From IMG/VR virus record IMGVR_UViG_3300020450_001517, positions 1-45,561 of that record: a stretch of 45,561 nucleotides of DNA. One strand, written 5' to 3'. Origin of the DNA: a virus. The position numbers were made by a program, and so were the translations under genes. Positions 4,053-35,263 of the stretch are shown here, one piece after another; the first letter of the stretch is position 1, and every line of letters begins with the position of its first letter. Below the pieces are notes generated by a model that saw only the letters and a list, made by a program, of their open reading frames with translations, was not told the DNA's origin and made no database searches.

Positions 4053-4373
4053 TTAGTAATTAGGATCCCACGAACCATATGCACCATCATCTGCACTGTA
4101 GTATGGATTATTGTAATTAGGATCATCCATACCGTCAACGGCAGTAACTTCTGGCACATAATGTTTGAGCATATTTTCTACACCCATTTTGAGTGTAATT
4201 GTACTGCTAGCACAACCACTACATCCACCTTGCAATAGCACAAGTACACGACCTGATTCTACATCAAAGTCTTGTAGTTCAATCATTCCTCCGTGTCCTG
4301 CAACTGCTGGATTGATATTTTCATCAATAATTTTGCCAATCTGTTCTAATATTTCTTGTTTAGATCGTTCCAT
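4053..4373 (-). CDS. NifU C-terminal-like Fe-S scaffold protein
   Basis: A 106-residue NifU C-terminal domain (Nfu/NfuA-like) protein. The CxxC pair (C51, C54 in GGCSGCASS) that bridges a 4Fe-4S cluster between two subunits is intact, as is the INPAVAGHGG element near residue 20. The last 30 residues are an Asp/Asn/Tyr-rich tail absent from most Nfu proteins. Its start overlaps the DUF1289 stop (TAATG), so two cysteine cluster proteins are co-translated. A possible role is delivering clusters to phage Fe-S enzymes such as the radical-SAM QueE encoded at 8380-9324; this is an inference. Confidence 0.88.
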   Translation of the reverse strand: MERSKQEILEQIGKIIDENINPAVAGHGGMIELQDFDVESGRVLVLLQGGCSGCASSTITLKMGVENMLKHYVPEVTAVDGMDDPNYNNPYYSADDGAYGSWDPNY

Positions 4374-4555
4374 TAAATTTGCCTTTTTAATATGTTTCTT
4401 CTTGTATTTAACTCTTGTATTACAGAGCTACGTTGTTCATCTGTATATTTTGTCCACATTCCTATTTCCGTAAGTGAACGAAAACACCCTGTGCAATGTT
4501 TCAACACAGGGTGTATTTTACATACTTTAATACATGGACTTTCAATTACTTTCAT
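4373..4555 (-). CDS. DUF1289 family Cys-rich protein
   Basis: A 60-residue DUF1289-like protein with four conserved Cys residues (C8, C12, C21, C24; pattern SPCxxVC...HCTGC) and a helical C-terminus. The family is common in proteobacteria, with four Cys that probably hold a metal or Fe-S centre; its function is not established. It is tightly coupled to the NifU-like gene. A perfect late motif (4562-4569) lies 6 bases before its ATG, which would leave almost no leader. Confidence 0.82.
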   Translation of the reverse strand: MKVIESPCIKVCKIHPVLKHCTGCFRSLTEIGMWTKYTDEQRSSVIQELNTRRNILKRQI

Positions 4556-4570: not shown

Positions 4571-4679
4571 TGGCTTTGGGGGGAGGATTCGAACCTCCAC
4601 GAAGTAAATAGTTTGTAAGAACTTTTTATACTTCACACGATAAACAGTCGTGCATGTCTACCATTTCCATCACCCCAAA
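4571..4679 (-). tRNA. tRNA-Asn(GUU)-like with long variable arm
   Basis: A 109-nt cloverleaf ending in an encoded CCA. Acceptor TTTGGGG/CCCCAAA (7 bp) with discriminator G; D arm with a 3-bp stem ATG/CAT; anticodon stem CACGA/TCGTG closing the 7-base loop CTGTTTA (anticodon GTT, U33 present); T arm GGAGG-TTCGAAT-CCTCC. The loop and G73 match Asn identity, but the variable region is about 37 nt and folds as a long hairpin (GAAGTA/TACTTC outer stem, AGTT/AACT inner). This class II feature is normal for Leu/Ser/Tyr, not Asn. Position 37 is U where a purine is usual. It begins 7 bases after the stop of an AsnRS-like gene. Only tRNA found in the window. Confidence 0.85.
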
Positions 4680-4686
4680 CTGTTTG

Positions 4687-5529
4687 TTACGCCGCCTCTT
4701 GAGCTATTACTTGTAGCTTATCCAACGCCGCAATCATTCTGGTCATGCCTATGCCTCCGCCCACTCTTGGGAAGAAGTCATGTTGCAAGAATTCTTCTAA
4801 TTCGCCTTGTACTCTATCTTTGCTGAACAAATCAAATAGTAAACTTGAATATGCACCTTCAGTGATAGTGTGAAATGTTTCTCTCATTTGGTCAATGTCT
4901 GTACTGCGTTCAGCACTTCCTATTGTTTCCATGCCTCCTAAGATAACATCTATTTTTCTACTTGTGCCATCTCCGTTACGTGACATATTCCAAAATGGTG
5001 ATGTCATCTCTGGAAACTCTGTAATCATTGTTTGTCCAAACTCGTTCATCATGTTAGTTTCTTCTTCAGCAGTCATTTCATAATCTTCTGCGAGTCCGTA
5101 GTGCTTCTGCCATTCAGCATATGTTTTTTCAGTTATCTCACCAAAACCTAAGTATTCACATAGTTCGTATTCCATTGCTTTAAGGTCATCTATTGTACCT
5201 GGCATTTCAAATTCAAACATTGGAAAGATAATATCATGTCTGCCTGGGATAGCATTTGGCTCTTGTCTATAAGACGTAGAGAGACAAAAAAAGCCCTTCG
5301 ATGAGGGCTTTGTTAGTAATTCATATTCGAGCCACATCTGGCCCGTCTGGGGTAACGGCCATACCTGCCCTGCATAATTGTATGTCGCTACGTTAAATGG
5401 ATCTTCACATGCCGCTAGTATTGACAATCTGTTTTGAGTATGTACTTCTTCAAAACCTTTATCCAAAAAAAATGACCTAAGAAGGCCTGTTGCGTGTGTG
5501 AATTTATGTGGATTTATTAGTTGTGTCAT
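4687..5529 (-). CDS. AsnRS-like class II aminoacyl-tRNA synthetase core
   Basis: A 280-residue class IIb synthetase catalytic domain (AsnRS/AspRS/AsnA superfamily) with no N-terminal OB-fold anticodon-binding domain; normal AsnRS is about 430-470 aa. Visible: PQTGQ (60-64, matching the AsnRS SGQ element), motif 2 YRQE...GRHDIIFPMFEFE (87-108, with R88, E90), GGMETIGSAER (198-208) and motif 3 GGGIGMTRM (257-265, R264). ATP and amino-acid activation should be intact. Candidates are charging the adjacent tRNA(GUU), an AsnA-type asparagine synthetase (archaeal AsnRS paralogues do this), or aminoacylation of something else. A late-promoter-like CATAAATA (5606-5613) lies upstream and the tRNA follows 7 bases downstream. 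Confidence 0.85.
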   Translation of the reverse strand: MTQLINPHKFTHATGLLRSFFLDKGFEEVHTQNRLSILAACEDPFNVATYNYAGQVWPLPQTGQMWLEYELLTKPSSKGFFCLSTSYRQEPNAIPGRHDIIFPMFEFEMPGTIDDLKAMEYELCEYLGFGEITEKTYAEWQKHYGLAEDYEMTAEEETNMMNEFGQTMITEFPEMTSPFWNMSRNGDGTSRKIDVILGGMETIGSAERSTDIDQMRETFHTITEGAYSSLLFDLFSKDRVQGELEEFLQHDFFPRVGGGIGMTRMIAALDKLQVIAQEAA

Positions 5530-5785: not shown

Positions 5786-5954
5786 ATTCTATACCGTTAA
5801 TCACATAAGTTTTACCATTGAACCCTTTGTCCATTTTTTCTTTGTCTGTCATTTTCTCACTATCCTTACGTACTTTATGATTGAATTTTGGCGGAGGTTT
5901 CTTTTGCTCTTCGTCTATTTTAGCAAATAATTTTTTTAATGCTTTGGGTATCAT
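5775..5954 (-). CDS. Small charged protein (59 aa)
   Basis: A 59-residue soluble protein, Lys-rich with a KKPPPKF stretch, ending NGKTYVINGIEYDF. It overlaps the gene downstream by 11 bases and the gene upstream by 4 bases (ATGA), strong evidence that it is translated. No family recognised. Confidence 0.7.
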   Translation of the reverse strand: MIPKALKKLFAKIDEEQKKPPPKFNHKVRKDSEKMTDKEKMDKGFNGKTYVINGIEYDF

Positions 5955-7533: not shown

Positions 7534-7745
7534 TTTTGAAATCTTTTCCATGTGTTGTGTAGTACATAAAACCAAACACCATTGATTAAAGGTTCTACTA
7601 TTGCATCTATTGTAGCCAGTTCTAGGCTTGCTCCAGTAATAATCATTACACATGCAATAGCTATAAGCATGTGTCCTATCGTATATACGATAGCTAGTGT
7701 AAGACTACTACCACCTATTAACCATTTTATTATATCATTTGCCAT
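7530..7745 (-). CDS. DUF2061-like membrane protein
   Basis: A 71-residue membrane protein with two transmembrane helices. The layout (SLTLAIVYTIGHM, then LELATIDAIVEPLINGVWFYVLHNTW) resembles DUF2061, a family of small inner-membrane proteins of unknown function. It overlaps neighbours on both sides. Not assigned to lysis, since the endolysin cluster is far away. Confidence 0.7.
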   Translation of the reverse strand: MANDIIKWLIGGSSLTLAIVYTIGHMLIAIACVMIITGASLELATIDAIVEPLINGVWFYVLHNTWKRFQK

Positions 7746-8166
7746 TTGATACCTCCGGCATTGTGAATAGAGCTTTTACTCCGTCATTTTCTGGTATTGG
7801 CTTACGGGCAAACACTACCCATTTGTGTGCCCACATAGTGTCTTTTGTAGTACAAAACTCTCTAAAACTTGTACCAGTTGTGTATACATCATCACATACC
7901 AACCAAGGATGATCTCCTTTTGTTACGTATTGTTCTAATGCAAATTGTAATGGCAAACCACCTCTTGGTATACCAACTACTCTACTAAAAGGTTCCGTTT
8001 GATAATCCATTATCATAGTTGCAAAACAATCCCATTCTTCAGGCTTGATTGCATCACATTCAATTTTCCATTTTAGTGGTATTCCTGCATGTGATATAAA
8101 GTCTATCTTTTGAAATAGATTTACAGGAACACCATACTCTAATGCATTTTTATTCCAATCTGTCAA
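7735..8166 (-). CDS. Phosphoribosyltransferase-like protein
   Basis: A 143-residue type I phosphoribosyltransferase fold protein. The PRPP-binding loop VCDDVYTTGTS (two Asp then TTGTS) is clear, and VVGIPRGGLPLQ is the upstream pyrophosphate loop. Closest in feel to orotate or adenine PRTases, but the hood that sets base specificity is too short to tell. It is one of three PRTase-like genes here (with 11018-11563 and 13418-13894), suggesting salvage of bases freed from host nucleic acid. Confidence 0.75.
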   Translation of the reverse strand: MTDWNKNALEYGVPVNLFQKIDFISHAGIPLKWKIECDAIKPEEWDCFATMIMDYQTEPFSRVVGIPRGGLPLQFALEQYVTKGDHPWLVCDDVYTTGTSFREFCTTKDTMWAHKWVVFARKPIPENDGVKALFTMPEVSNGK

Positions 8167-10915: not shown

Positions 10916-11025
10916 GCTTTGTCAATCACTTTTTGCATCAGTATTTGTGGTAAAGCACACAAGTAACCATACAAGGGCCAAAAAAGCAAATTGCCAATAA
11001 TTATATCTATGTATTCATTAAACAT
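10912..11025 (-). CDS. Tiny membrane protein (37 aa)
   Basis: A 37-residue hydrophobic protein (MFNEYIDIIIGNLLFWPLYG...) with one membrane helix. It overlaps the downstream dehydrogenase start by 4 bases (ATGA) and the upstream apt stop by 8 bases, which supports it as a real gene. Function unknown. Confidence 0.6.
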   Translation of the reverse strand: MFNEYIDIIIGNLLFWPLYGYLCALPQILMQKVIDKA

Positions 11026-11563
11026 TGTTTGTAACCCTAGCCAAATATGCCATGTCGATATGTAAGGAACCTTCTCTTACATACTTTAAATCTATAATAG
11101 TACTTACTCCAAGTACACTGGCACCGGTCTTTTCAACAAGTCTTTTGGTAGCTAAAATACTTCCTCCGGTTGCAACCAGATCATCAGCTAGAACACATCT
11201 ATCTGTATGTCCTAATAATCCTGTCTGCAATGTTAATGTTGATTCTCCGTATTCTAAAAAATACTTTTCTTCTAACAAATCGCCTGGATATTTTGCTCCA
11301 GCTTTTCTTACCATTATAAAAGGCAAATCCATTGCGTAGGCTATTGCACTTCCTACTACAAAACCTCTGCTTTCTATACCAACAATATGTGTTACTGCTC
11401 TATGTTCATATCTGCATTTTGTTTTGATGATTAATTCGTCCATTGCACTTTTAAAACTTGAACTTGCAAATAAGCTATTCAAGTCATAAAAATTAATACC
11501 TTTGATTGGATAATTAGGTACTGTTCTAATTAGTTCCAAATAATTTGTTTTAGGATTTTCCAT
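11018..11563 (-). CDS. apt: Adenine phosphoribosyltransferase-like
   Basis: A 181-residue protein matching bacterial adenine PRTases in length and motifs: IVGIESRGFVVGSAIAYAM (61-79), VRKAGAKYPG, and the PRPP loop VLADDLVATGGS. It converts adenine and PRPP to AMP. Beside PurA and a second PRTase it fits adenine recovery from degraded host DNA. It overlaps the small genes on both sides. Confidence 0.88.
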   Translation of the reverse strand: MENPKTNYLELIRTVPNYPIKGINFYDLNSLFASSSFKSAMDELIIKTKCRYEHRAVTHIVGIESRGFVVGSAIAYAMDLPFIMVRKAGAKYPGDLLEEKYFLEYGESTLTLQTGLLGHTDRCVLADDLVATGGSILATKRLVEKTGASVLGVSTIIDLKYVREGSLHIDMAYLARVTNNV

Positions 11564-11969: not shown

Positions 11970-12523
11970 TATTTAGGTTCCCAATGTTCAAGACATCTTG
12001 GTTCATACATACCCATGCTACCCACTTGTACTCTACTGCCTGTTGCTTTAATCCTATATGTTTTTGTTGCTTCTTTTCCACATGTTGTACAAATGGCTTT
12101 TATCTTTTGTACACAGTCAGCTAATCCTAGCAATTGACTTGTAGTTTCAAAAGGTATGCCTCTGCTATCTTGATCCAATCCTGCGGCGATTACATTTACA
12201 CCGTTACGCAACCACATTTCAACACTACTCAATGTATCTTTTGTTTCCATAAATTGTATTTCGTCTAAGCATACTGTATTAAAATTATATGGCATAATAT
12301 TGTAGTTGTCTTCTATTTCGCTAAATTCGCTAAAACTAATACAAGGATAGCTCAACTGATTGTGTGTAACAATCGTATCTTCGTTATATCTATTGTCTTT
12401 TGCAGGTTTAATAACCAGTATCTTTTTTTGCTGATGATCAAGCCACAGAACCCGTTGTAAAAGTTTACTGGTTTTGCCAGCATACATAGGTCCTGCATAT
12501 ACATCAAGTGTTCCTCTAGGCAT
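11969..12523 (-). CDS. tdk: Thymidine kinase
   Basis: A 184-residue type II thymidine kinase making dTMP from thymidine and ATP. P-loop GPMYAGKTSK (11-20), DEIQFM lid/Mg motif, substrate loop GLDQDSRG, and a zinc site from CTTC plus a C-terminal Cys/His pair (PRCLEHW). Length is typical. It belongs to the nucleotide-salvage group of this region and overlaps the acidic gene upstream by 8 bases. Confidence 0.93.
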   Translation of the reverse strand: MPRGTLDVYAGPMYAGKTSKLLQRVLWLDHQQKKILVIKPAKDNRYNEDTIVTHNQLSYPCISFSEFSEIEDNYNIMPYNFNTVCLDEIQFMETKDTLSSVEMWLRNGVNVIAAGLDQDSRGIPFETTSQLLGLADCVQKIKAICTTCGKEATKTYRIKATGSRVQVGSMGMYEPRCLEHWEPK

Positions 12524-13254: not shown

Positions 13255-13434
13255 TTAACTTGGTGTTGGGTTATGAAATTCGTCTTCTATTGCAACTATA
13301 GTATGAAATGTTGCCGCTCTAGGTCTTTTTTGTTTTATAACTTCCATATATGCTTCAGCTTCACTTAATGTATTAAATGTTGCAACTACTACAGGATCTT
13401 CAATACGTGGCTCATATTCAATTGCGAACATCAT
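13255..13434 (-). CDS. Small hypothetical protein (59 aa)
   Basis: A 59-residue soluble protein; the start at 13434 was chosen because GTAGGAG precedes it. Mixed alpha/beta look (PVVVATFNTLSEAEAYMEV then TFHTIVAIEDEFHNP), resembling a short SPOR- or ferredoxin-fold-sized domain. It overlaps the xanthine-guanine PRTase-like gene by 17 bases. No function recognised. Confidence 0.65.
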   Translation of the reverse strand: MMFAIEYEPRIEDPVVVATFNTLSEAEAYMEVIKQKRPRAATFHTIVAIEDEFHNPTPS

Positions 13435-13894
13435 AGTCTCCTACGTTTTCCCAAGGATAAACTAACCATACATCTTCCTCGGCTTTGTTTACTTCATGCA
13501 CATGATAACTTACTTCACCAAATGTGCTTGCCATATTTTCTGTTAGTGTTGCAAACTTTACACCATGTAGTATATTTTCTAATCCCCAATCTTCCCATAT
13601 CCAATTGAATGTTGCACCTGAGTCATTGATATCATCTACAATGAGTATCTTCTTGTCCATAATTAGTTCACTTAACCAAAAGTTTTTGTCAACTCTATCA
13701 TCGTTCCTAAAACTTACTTTCATTGCTTCGCAAGGGATATCTAACATATTACTAATAATAGAAGCAGGAATATTGCCTCCTCTAGTAAGTCCTACAATAT
13801 AATCTGGTTTAAAATTATCAGCATACATTTGTTTAACAATGCTTGTACACATTGTTTCTATGTCTTGCCAACTGTAAAAATGTTTTTTAATCAT
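13418..13894 (-). CDS. Xanthine/hypoxanthine-guanine PRTase-like protein
   Basis: A 158-residue purine PRTase: YIVGLTRGGNIPASIISN (32-49), PRPP loop ILIVDDINDSGAT (about 83-95), and a C-terminal VWLVYPWE as in Gpt-like enzymes. It would form GMP, XMP or IMP from the free base. Together with Apt and PurA it gives the phage its own purine salvage route and may feed GTP to FolE. It overlaps neighbours by 4 and 17 bases. Confidence 0.85.
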   Translation of the reverse strand: MIKKHFYSWQDIETMCTSIVKQMYADNFKPDYIVGLTRGGNIPASIISNMLDIPCEAMKVSFRNDDRVDKNFWLSELIMDKKILIVDDINDSGATFNWIWEDWGLENILHGVKFATLTENMASTFGEVSYHVHEVNKAEEDVWLVYPWENVGDYDVRN

Positions 13895-14169: not shown

Positions 14170-15371
14170 TAAAATAAATCCTTCAGTACTATTGTTTGAT
14201 CTCTTTCTGGTCCAGTTGATATTAGTACAACTTTAGTATAGATGAGTTTTTCAATTTTGTCAACATATAGTTGTGCATTCACTGGTAAGTCACTGTATTC
14301 TGTTATACCAACAGTACTTGTACGCCACCCAGACATTTCTTCATAAACGGGTATGCCGTTGTTGTGATCTACACATATTTTAATAGTGGCAAGATCATCT
14401 AATACATCCATTTTCATTAGTGCAATACCAGTACACCCATTTAGCATACAAGTTTTACGAACTTGAGGTGCATCAAACCAGCCACAGCGTCTATCTCTGC
14501 CAGTAACTGTGCCTTTTTCTCCGCCTTTTTCTGCTAGGTGCCAACCAATATCATCTGTTAGTTCAGTAAGCATTGGACCTTCGCCTACTCTAGTTGTGTA
14601 TGCTTTTGTTATTCCTAGTACGTTTGGTATTTTGTTATGAGGCACGCCACTACCTATACTTGCCATACCAGCCAATGTATTTGAACTTGTAACATACGGA
14701 TAAGTTCCATGATCCACATCTAACATTGAGCCTTGAGCTCCTTCAAACAAAATATTTTTGCCAGCATCGGTTTGTTCATTTAACCATTCAGCTACAGGAC
14801 CAACGTACTGTAGTATCTCATGTCTAATTTCTAATAGTTCAACAAGCAAATCTTGTTGGTCAAAGTCGTGGTGTTCACCTGCTATTTTTAATCTATCTTT
14901 GAGTAGTCTAGTGTCGCTGAGATCACTAACTTTAATTGCACGTCTACCAGCCTTGTCCTCATATGCAGGACCAATACCTCTGCCAGTAGTACCAATCTTT
15001 TTCTTAGTTGCTTGTTCTCTTGATTGATCTAATTGTTTATGATATGGTAAAATTAAACAAGTATTTTCTGCAATCATTAATCTAGTAGAGTCAATTTTTA
15101 TACCTTGCGACTTTACCGATTCAATCTCTTTTAATAGTTCCCACGGATCTAATACAACACCATTTCCAATAACTACAATTTTATCTTCTCTAACAATACC
15201 ACTAGGTAATAAACTTAATTTGAATACCTTATCTTCAATTACTAGTGTGTGTCCTGCATTGTGTCCGCCTTGAAAACGTACAACTATATCTGCTTGTTCA
15301 GCAAGTAAGTCAACTACTTTACCTTTACCTTCGTCACCCCATTGGGTGCCTACAACTACTAAGTTTCCCAT
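14169..15371 (-). CDS. purA: Adenylosuccinate synthetase
   Basis: A 400-residue adenylosuccinate synthetase (IMP + Asp + GTP to adenylosuccinate), slightly shorter than bacterial PurA (about 430). GTQWGDEGKGK (8-18) keeps the catalytic Asp, GGHNAGHT keeps the catalytic His, TTGRGIGP binds IMP, and STGPERDQT binds GTP. Phage PurZ enzymes of the 2-aminoadenine pathway carry Ser in place of that Asp, so this is PurA rather than PurZ. It may boost AMP/dATP synthesis in an AT-rich phage. A structured leader (15392-15423) separates it from yhhQ. Confidence 0.94.
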   Translation of the reverse strand: MGNLVVVGTQWGDEGKGKVVDLLAEQADIVVRFQGGHNAGHTLVIEDKVFKLSLLPSGIVREDKIVVIGNGVVLDPWELLKEIESVKSQGIKIDSTRLMIAENTCLILPYHKQLDQSREQATKKKIGTTGRGIGPAYEDKAGRRAIKVSDLSDTRLLKDRLKIAGEHHDFDQQDLLVELLEIRHEILQYVGPVAEWLNEQTDAGKNILFEGAQGSMLDVDHGTYPYVTSSNTLAGMASIGSGVPHNKIPNVLGITKAYTTRVGEGPMLTELTDDIGWHLAEKGGEKGTVTGRDRRCGWFDAPQVRKTCMLNGCTGIALMKMDVLDDLATIKICVDHNNGIPVYEEMSGWRTSTVGITEYSDLPVNAQLYVDKIEKLIYTKVVLISTGPERDQTIVLKDLF

Positions 15372-18179: not shown

Positions 18180-18863
18180 CTATTTGGCATATTCTTGTTG
18201 TAATTTTACATTATCAATAAATTCTTTCCTTACGTCTGGCTCATCTTTAAAAGCACCTCTAAGCACTGTGGTTTGTGTTAAACTACTGTGTGCTTTGATG
18301 CCTCTGTTCTCACAACAACCATGTGTTGCTTGAATATAAACACCTACATGTTCACTGCCTGTAATTTCTTGTATTTTATTTGCAATCATTACATTCAAGT
18401 CTTCTTGTAGTGTGCCTCTTTTTGCTACCCATTGTGCAATTCTTGAGTACTTGCTTAGACCTAATAGTTTTGGACCTGCAATTATACCAATGTATGCTAC
18501 ACCTTTTACTGTTTGGTGATGATGCGAACACAAACTAGTTAGTTCACTACGCACAACCAACATGCCTTCATAACCACCTTCAATGTAGTTGGGAAATGCA
18601 CTAGGGTTGGGCATTGCATCATAACGACCAGACATAATCTCATTGATGTACATCTTTGCCATACGTCTTGCAGTATCCATACTGTTAGGATCAGTCTCAG
18701 TATCAATCACTAGACTTTGTAATACATTTTCAAAAGCTGGCATCGCCTCTTCGATGAGTTGTTGCTTTTCGCCTTCTTCCATGTAATCACTGATGTTGTC
18801 GTTTGCCCATGCTCTCGCACCAGCGGCGTCGACACGCTCTTTAATTTTTTGGGAAATTTTCAT
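18180..18863 (-). CDS. folE: GTP cyclohydrolase I
   Basis: A 227-residue FolE making 7,8-dihydroneopterin triphosphate from GTP, the first step to deazaguanines and folate. Zinc and active-site motifs: SLCSHHHQTVKG (Cys, His), LLGLSKYSRIAQWVAKR, and THGCCENRGIKAHSS (Cys). Last gene of the DpdA/QueD-like/glycosyltransferase block, right before a terminator. The QueE step is supplied by the separate unit at 8380-9324. Confidence 0.94.
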   Translation of the reverse strand: MKISQKIKERVDAAGARAWANDNISDYMEEGEKQQLIEEAMPAFENVLQSLVIDTETDPNSMDTARRMAKMYINEIMSGRYDAMPNPSAFPNYIEGGYEGMLVVRSELTSLCSHHHQTVKGVAYIGIIAGPKLLGLSKYSRIAQWVAKRGTLQEDLNVMIANKIQEITGSEHVGVYIQATHGCCENRGIKAHSSLTQTTVLRGAFKDEPDVRKEFIDNVKLQQEYAK

Positions 18864-34840: not shown

Positions 34841-35263
34841 CTATGTATTTATTGCTCCTAGGATCTCATACCCTTGTATTTTAGATTTATATTCGTGATG
34901 ATCTCCTAGATATAGATATTTGTAGCCTTTTGATTTAAGCCATGCCGGAACATGATGACTAAAACGCCAGCCTATTTCAGCCAGTGGATTATCGTATGTC
35001 CATGCAAATTGGTAACTGTGTGCTATCAAATCCTTGGGATATAGTTTCGTTTGCTCCCAAGCAACAAGTTTTCCGTCTTGGTATAAGCAATTCCAGTCAT
35101 GTAATTCAATATCTCCATAATATAAAGGAATAACACTTGTAAAATTTTTGTATTTGCAATAAGCGTCATATACACCACTTGCCTCTTCGTAAGTTGGCCG
35201 ATGGTGTATAATATCCTTGTCTAGTTTATACTCAACTTTAGATAAATCAACTCTACCGTACAT
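34841..35263 (-). CDS. ATE/GNAT-like transferase
   Basis: A 140-residue protein that resembles the GNAT-type C-terminal half of arginyl/leucyl-tRNA-protein transferases: DGKLVAWEQT, then a helix, and KYLYLGDHHEYKSKIQGYEIL, which has the Y-x-YLG...YK...E-x-L spacing of that family. If correct it would move an acyl or aminoacyl group to a peptide amine. The match is by eye and modest. It overlaps an ATP-grasp-like gene by 11 bases, so the two probably act together. Confidence 0.5.
   Translation of the reverse strand: MYGRVDLSKVEYKLDKDIIHHRPTYEEASGVYDAYCKYKNFTSVIPLYYGDIELHDWNCLYQDGKLVAWEQTKLYPKDLIAHSYQFAWTYDNPLAEIGWRFSHHVPAWLKSKGYKYLYLGDHHEYKSKIQGYEILGAINT
34846..34853 (-). promoter_or_regulatory. 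Late promoter candidate (AATAAATA)
   Basis: AATAAATA on the minus strand, 25 bases before the endolysin ATG, overlapping the 3' end of the upstream gene. One base from the T4 late octamer; placement before a lysis gene is what a late promoter would predict. Confidence 0.45.

Follow-up and report, generated by a model that had tools for sequence, protein, structure and literature searches.

The locus and its surroundings

The window considered here is a 45,561-nt stretch of viral DNA (positions 1 to 45,561 of IMG/VR record IMGVR_UViG_3300020450_001517, that is, the stretch at its full length). On its minus strand it encodes a synthetase-like protein, referred to below as X, whose stop codon is followed after 7 nt, on the same strand, by a tRNA. 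The features discussed are:

4687-5529, minus strand: X, a core-only class IIb synthetase paralogue of 280 aa, phrog_29758 (by Pfam, PHROG and AF2 model)
5288-5320, minus strand: terminator-like hairpin and T run inside the X coding sequence, AAAGCCCTCATCGAAGGGCTTTTTTT; its match to Rfam SpF51 is weak and under the cut-off
4574-4679, minus strand, with an encoded CCA to 4571: class II tRNA with anticodon GUU, U1-A72, G73, U37 and a 37-nt variable region (by Rfam, covariation and conservation)
4056-4373 and 4376-4555, minus strand: NifU-like iron-sulphur carrier and DUF1289, which immediately follow the tRNA downstream
7735-8166, minus strand: small phosphoribosyltransferase-like protein, OPRT' (by identity to Pasteurella and Rickettsiales phosphoribosyltransferases, and a PRPP loop)
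11021-11563, 11972-12523, 13421-13894, 14172-15371 and 18183-18863: five nucleotide-metabolism genes (two further phosphoribosyltransferases, thymidine kinase, adenylosuccinate synthetase PurA and GTP cyclohydrolase I FolE)

The OPRT'-like gene is the window's only member of the pyrimidine gene set linked to X elsewhere (see below), and lies amid these other nucleotide genes. Taken alone, it has no Pfam match; it belongs to the family that follows X and pyrF in Pasteurella and Rickettsiales, with 39% identity to the phosphoribosyltransferase of the Pasteurella locus L213 and 35-39% to that of Rickettsiales, and the PRPP-loop motif DDVxTTG is conserved in the alignment. NifU-like genes appear to follow the X-tRNA pair in four other loci as well (L002, L004, L031, L041). 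A connection with an ATE-like gene (34841-35263), proposed in the first-pass annotation, is not supported: that gene has no Pfam or PHROG match.

The enzyme

X matches Pfam PF00152 (tRNA-synt_2; D, K, and N) over residues 12-275, with 60.3 bits (E 2.2e-16), and phrog_29758, a family of “unknown function,” with 410 bits. Its 280 aa begin at the catalytic core, and there is no N-terminal OB-fold anticodon-binding domain, here or across the family, as the initial description of a class IIb core without such a domain had it. Motifs 1-3 are present, with conserved R88, E90, R97, H98, and R264; the same catalytic residues occur in all three groups of X (tRNA-linked phages, huge and freshwater phages, and cellular). 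The pocket motif TGQMWLE, found in 14 of 14 tRNA-linked representatives, agrees with the SGQLYxE of AsnRS and not with the SPQLYKQ of AspRS (in a comparison with AsnRS and AspRS sequences from other genomes that carry X), with the Glu of AsnRS, and no AspRS Lys, at the Asp-binding position. The AsnRS-type motifs noted at first pass are thus borne out.

Family-specific models do not claim X: it scores 23.9 bits against the NCBIfam AsnRS equivalog NF003037 (cut-off 414) and 21.1 bits against the NCBIfam asparagine synthetase (cut-off 389), and lies far under the NCBIfam AspRS cut-off. Plain phmmer against the PDB gives weak AspRS and LysRS matches only, and profiles are required; by profile search, AsnRS structures come out nearest (E 5e-13). 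The AF2 model (pLDDT 94.2) has AsnRS and AspRS as its best PDB folds, among the closest an AsnRS with bound Asn-adenylate (1x54, TMq 0.77). With the archaeal/eukaryotic type of AsnRS (class IIb; e.g., 1x54, 2xgt), X therefore has in common the catalytic fold, the three class II motifs, and an SGQLxxE-type pocket with its Glu; it differs in lacking the N-terminal OB domain, in its separate deep clade (about 19% identity), and in its pyrimidine operons. In a tree with AsnRS, AspRS, LysRS, and AsnA, a check of the kind suggested at the outset, X forms its own deep clade, not inside AsnRS; where this clade joins AsnA the branches are long and one row (L510) was mis-extracted, so that its placement there is tentative. 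The tRNA-linked X proteins are acidic (median pI 4.7), but so are E. coli synthetases (5.1-5.5), and charge is hence uninformative. Judging by the AsnRS-like pocket and predicted fold, X likely binds Asn and ATP as its substrates.

The adjacent tRNA

The window tRNA scores 43.2 bits against Rfam RF00005 (gathering score 29), and its 37-nt variable region folds as a hairpin, in agreement with the original report of a tRNA with a long extra arm 7 bases past the enzyme. ARAGORN called no tRNA in the window, probably because of this variable region. The Asn features first ascribed to it are correct for the anticodon GUU and G73, but the anticodon loop is not of the ordinary Asn type: it reads CUGUUUA, with U37 where A is expected.

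A class II tRNA lies behind X in 156 of 160 related loci (those with at least 160 nt downstream of X), in most cases starting 4-12 nt past the stop codon. Anticodon GTT, U1, and G73 are each found in 156 of 156 (101 distinct sequences), and the U1-A72 pair is invariant. Over 57 distinct aligned homologues, helix cells are 99.8% paired, with 308 double changes vs. 78 in shuffles. This conservation and covariation rule out a chance association. The variable region ranges from 11 to 37 nt; the CCA is encoded in tRNAs of the heterotroph-phage group and not in those of the cyanophages. The long arm of the heterotroph-phage tRNAs (e.g., L002, L005, L007) includes a CTGCAAtATATTT-like segment conserved across many phages.

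In GUU, G73, and U1-A72 these tRNAs are like bacterial tRNA-Asn, while the body resembles tRNA-Leu, with a D-arm (GTGAAATTGGTAGACAC) identical to that of a phage tRNA-Leu in locus L020. They are unlike elongator tRNA-Asn, with its purine 37 and short class I loop, in having a class II variable arm, a pyrimidine at 37, and sometimes C33. Position 37 of decoding tRNAs is a purine; a pyrimidine (U or C) is found there in 140 of the 156 X-linked tRNAs, as against at most 4 of 111 other tRNAs of the same loci, 3 of those 4 being the X-linked tRNA misread. U33 is replaced by C33 or G33 in 12 of the 156 loci (e.g., L007, L041, L095, L128), the tRNA being otherwise intact. Pyrimidine 37 and the lost U33 suggest that the X-linked tRNA is ill suited to ordinary decoding.

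To judge from these sequences, the identity set for asparaginylation is kept: G34 U35 U36, G73, and U1-A72 make up the Asn/ND-AspRS anticodon set together with the GatCAB determinant, U1-A72 (PMC9976931, PMC4206432). Since the anticodon is invariant while X has no anticodon-reading domain, loading with Asn by host enzymes would explain the invariance better than reading by X. Hosts without free Asn synthesis make Asn on tRNA (PMC4206432).

Distribution of X with and without the tRNA

At least 597 relatives were found in one scan of IMG/VR. Among isolates, the pair occurs in the Prochlorococcus phages P-SSM2, P-SSM5, and P-SSM7, with X annotated as “tRNA ligase” and the tRNA as “tRNA-Asn.” In P-SSM2 and P-SSM7 this is T4-GC 194, the same gene family with the same tRNA as the window pair; it is annotated without function, and no pyrimidine link for it was found in the literature searched. 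P-SSM2 has a single tRNA (PMC3037559). The site annotated for it (7825-7910 in NC_006883.2, L083) holds no tRNA, the real one being at 5814-5899, right behind X; the record therefore seems to be shifted.

Homologues with 48-66% identity occur on genome contigs of Patescibacteria, Pasteurella atlantica, Midichloriaceae, Dependentiae, DPANN archaea, and others, and X is also found in huge and freshwater phages; plasmids yielded none, and the huge-phage X of L086, used as a query, found no further viral relatives. Beside cellular, huge-phage, and freshwater-phage X there is no adjacent tRNA, save on contigs resembling marine phage. Nor was a credible class II GUU tRNA pattern found elsewhere in 30 of these cellular X genomes and huge-phage records; four matches to the pattern were not tRNA-like, and were read as chance. 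In a tree of X, the marine phages with the linked tRNA group together, a few unlinked members included. Co-occurrence in related phages, which the first-pass annotation had offered as a check on the pairing, thus holds in the window's marine clade and not for the family as a whole, which includes CPR bacteria, Rickettsiales, Pasteurella, and huge and freshwater phages that have the enzyme and no such tRNA, the case named there as refuting the idea.

Single loci have X with a remnant of the tRNA or with none. In L177, just downstream of X (about 5860-5885), the sequence TCCGGGGTCCCCCGGAGCCA consists of two acceptor-stem halves joined directly, followed by G73 and CCA, apparently what is left of a tRNA after deletion of all but the acceptor stem; L381 and L382 keep DHODH and X, and lack the tRNA. 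These cases suggest that the tRNA is helpful rather than indispensable, and, as cellular X lacks it, it cannot be essential to the chemistry of X.

Association with pyrimidine synthesis genes

In Rickettsiales symbionts (L214, L215, L222; Pfam-verified for L215) X heads an operon X-pyrF-PRTase(OPRT)-DHODH-PRPP synthetase-transketolase, whose gene content covers the whole way to UMP from dihydroorotate and sugar phosphate. Similar arrangements are X-pyrF-PRT-DHODH in L200 and X-pyrF-PRT, with pyrD adjoining, in Pasteurella atlantica (L213). In the latter chromosome the PyrF in the X operon is a divergent second copy, another being encoded elsewhere. In phages, the order is X-tRNA-pyrF-DHODH in L412, L413, and L523; DHODH-X-tRNA-OPRT' in L379, L380, and L387/L022; and DHODH-X-tRNA in L393-L396 and L398. 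The DHODH and PRTase families are the same in phage and Rickettsiales operons. Cyanophages have a different OPRT, which is beside X in L107; P-SSM2, P-SSM5, and P-SSM7 are the only isolate cyanophages with X and the only ones with this OPRT (about 441 cyanomyovirus-like records).

Among the immediate neighbours of cellular X (110 scanned), PRTases are the most frequent (8), followed by OMP decarboxylase and RuvB (6 each). Viral loci found by the phage DHODH alone have X within 10 kb in 12 of 44 cases, and those found by the PRTase have it within that distance in 17 of 80. Most phage X loci, being contig fragments, show no pyrimidine gene within 5 kb.

Compared with the de novo UMP pathway (CarAB-PyrB-PyrC-PyrD-PyrE-PyrF), the X operons share homologues of PyrD, PyrE, and PyrF, but the first three steps are absent and X is in their place. 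The early genes were often not found elsewhere in the genome either: in 24 X genomes, PyrF was found in 20 and a DHODH-family match in 18, while PyrB was over the cut-off in 3, PyrC (of types other than the E. coli-type TIGR00856) in 2, and CarB in 3. Eleven of the 24 (G010-G012, G022, G023, G028-G031, G033, G037) have PyrF and DHODH and none of PyrB, PyrC, or CarB, a number that MAG incompleteness can inflate by mimicking gene absence; G014 and G016 are X genomes that do have these genes. Of 240 random Patescibacteria, 5 have X, 3 of these with PyrF and none with PyrB, a trend in the same direction from a sample too small to be significant alone (p = 0.12). With conserved linkage to PyrD, PyrE, and PyrF homologues in unrelated genomes, it seems fairly secure from operon structure that X is a member of the pyrimidine pathway. 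No literature link between an AsnRS-like protein and pyrimidine synthesis was found in the open-access papers searched.

A possible role in dihydroorotate synthesis

We lean toward the view that X is a metabolic AsnRS paralogue supplying dihydroorotate instead of CarAB-PyrB-PyrC, with the tRNA as its partner in marine phages. X would then head a short UMP route, in which dihydroorotate passes through DHODH, OPRT, and OMP decarboxylase to UMP, and CarAB, PyrB, and PyrC would not be needed. Dihydroorotate would be the simplest reading of the product: in mass balance, it equals Asn + CO2 - H2O. X might first adenylate the Asn alpha-carboxyl, as AsnRS does; CO2 on the alpha-amine could then close to an N-carboxyanhydride; and attack of the side-chain amide on the C2 carbonyl of the anhydride would give dihydroorotate with a free carboxylate. 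Aminoacyl adenylates are known to pass through N-carboxyanhydrides if CO2 is present (PMC6462974), and the proposed chemistry would leave Asn activation by the AsnRS core unchanged. Counting against it, N-carboxylation would need to be compatible with the conserved alpha-amino contacts.

The tRNA could be charged by host AsnRS, or by a non-discriminating AspRS with GatCAB; its invariant set would suit either. With its pyrimidine 37 and long arm, the tRNA might be kept off the ribosome and passed to X as an Asn source or carrier, perhaps after charging by host enzymes, and in hosts without free Asn synthesis a dedicated tRNA could feed X. In its most specific form the proposal is more tentative: reduced bacteria and marine phages would make dihydroorotate from Asn, CO2, and ATP in one step, by a synthase derived from AsnRS that takes over from the first three pyrimidine steps, and the phages would feed this enzyme through a dedicated tRNA, not used in decoding, that host enzymes load with Asn or on which they make it.

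As a second possibility, X might be a miniature AsnRS for the class II tRNA-GUU, which it would charge by way of the acceptor end and long arm, providing Asn-tRNA for phage translation, e.g., when host tRNA-Asn is cleaved. The AsnRS-like pocket and fold, the near-constant adjacency, and the invariant GUU, U1-A72, and G73 would all fit such a translation pair, and phage tRNAs with altered anticodon loops have been proposed to evade tRNA nucleases (PMC10264068). We consider it rather unlikely: many bacteria and phages have X without the tRNA; besides X, a normal AsnRS seems to be encoded in Pasteurella and others; X sits in pyrimidine operons; pyrimidine 37 (90%) and non-U33 (12 of 156) are unsuited to decoding AAY codons; and the anticodon is the part of the tRNA that is invariant, yet X has no domain to bind it. 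Of the first-pass reading, the same-strand pair of matching identity is supported as a conserved pair with Asn identity elements, and so is the guess that its product may go into something other than ribosomal translation; a role as a translation pair is not supported.

A more indirect link is a third possibility. X might make Asn-AMP or Asn-tRNA for some amino-acyl transfer, e.g., to a nucleotide, the pyrimidine genes being merely part of a general nucleotide cassette; the window is indeed rich in nucleotide genes (PurA, thymidine kinase, FolE, and three PRTases), and tRNA-dependent pathways, such as the use of Glu-tRNA in haem synthesis, are known. This seems improbable, as the neighbours of X are specifically PyrD, PyrE, and PyrF, of the same families in phages and Rickettsiales.

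Finally, the AsnA-type asparagine synthetase named at the outset as the main alternative, in which X, acting as AsnA or the archaeal AS-AR does, would adenylate the Asp beta-carboxyl and use ammonia to form free Asn, with the tRNA profiting from the surplus, remains a rival and a distinctly improbable one: X shares with both a core-only architecture (that of a metabolic synthetase paralogue, about 280-330 aa long), AS-AR 3p8t is among its profile matches (E 2.8e-5), and direct comparison with the E. coli protein shows a resemblance to AsnA in motif 3 (GGGIG..R) and in the spacing of motif 2, but the pocket is AsnRS-like and not Asp-binding, with Glu and no Lys, the sequence relation is weak (hhalign E 0.015 to E. 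coli AsnA vs. 8e-4 to AsnRS), linkage is to pyrimidine genes or the tRNA and not to asparagine metabolism, and the pyrF/OPRT/DHODH operons and missing CarAB, PyrB, and PyrC would be left unexplained.

Implications

The synthetase-tRNA pair singled out at first pass is real, and its centre of interest moves from translation to nucleotide synthesis. Many ocean phages carry X with its odd Asn-type tRNA. To our knowledge, the early part of pyrimidine synthesis is viewed as almost universal; if dihydroorotate synthesis by X is correct, a synthetase-like bypass of this part would be a new metabolic pathway, found both in symbiotic bacteria and in phages abundant in the ocean. The long-annotated “tRNA ligase” of P-SSM2 and that phage's single tRNA would gain a function as well. 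Known uses of aminoacyl-tRNA outside the ribosome are few, and a tRNA devoted to making nucleotides would add one more.
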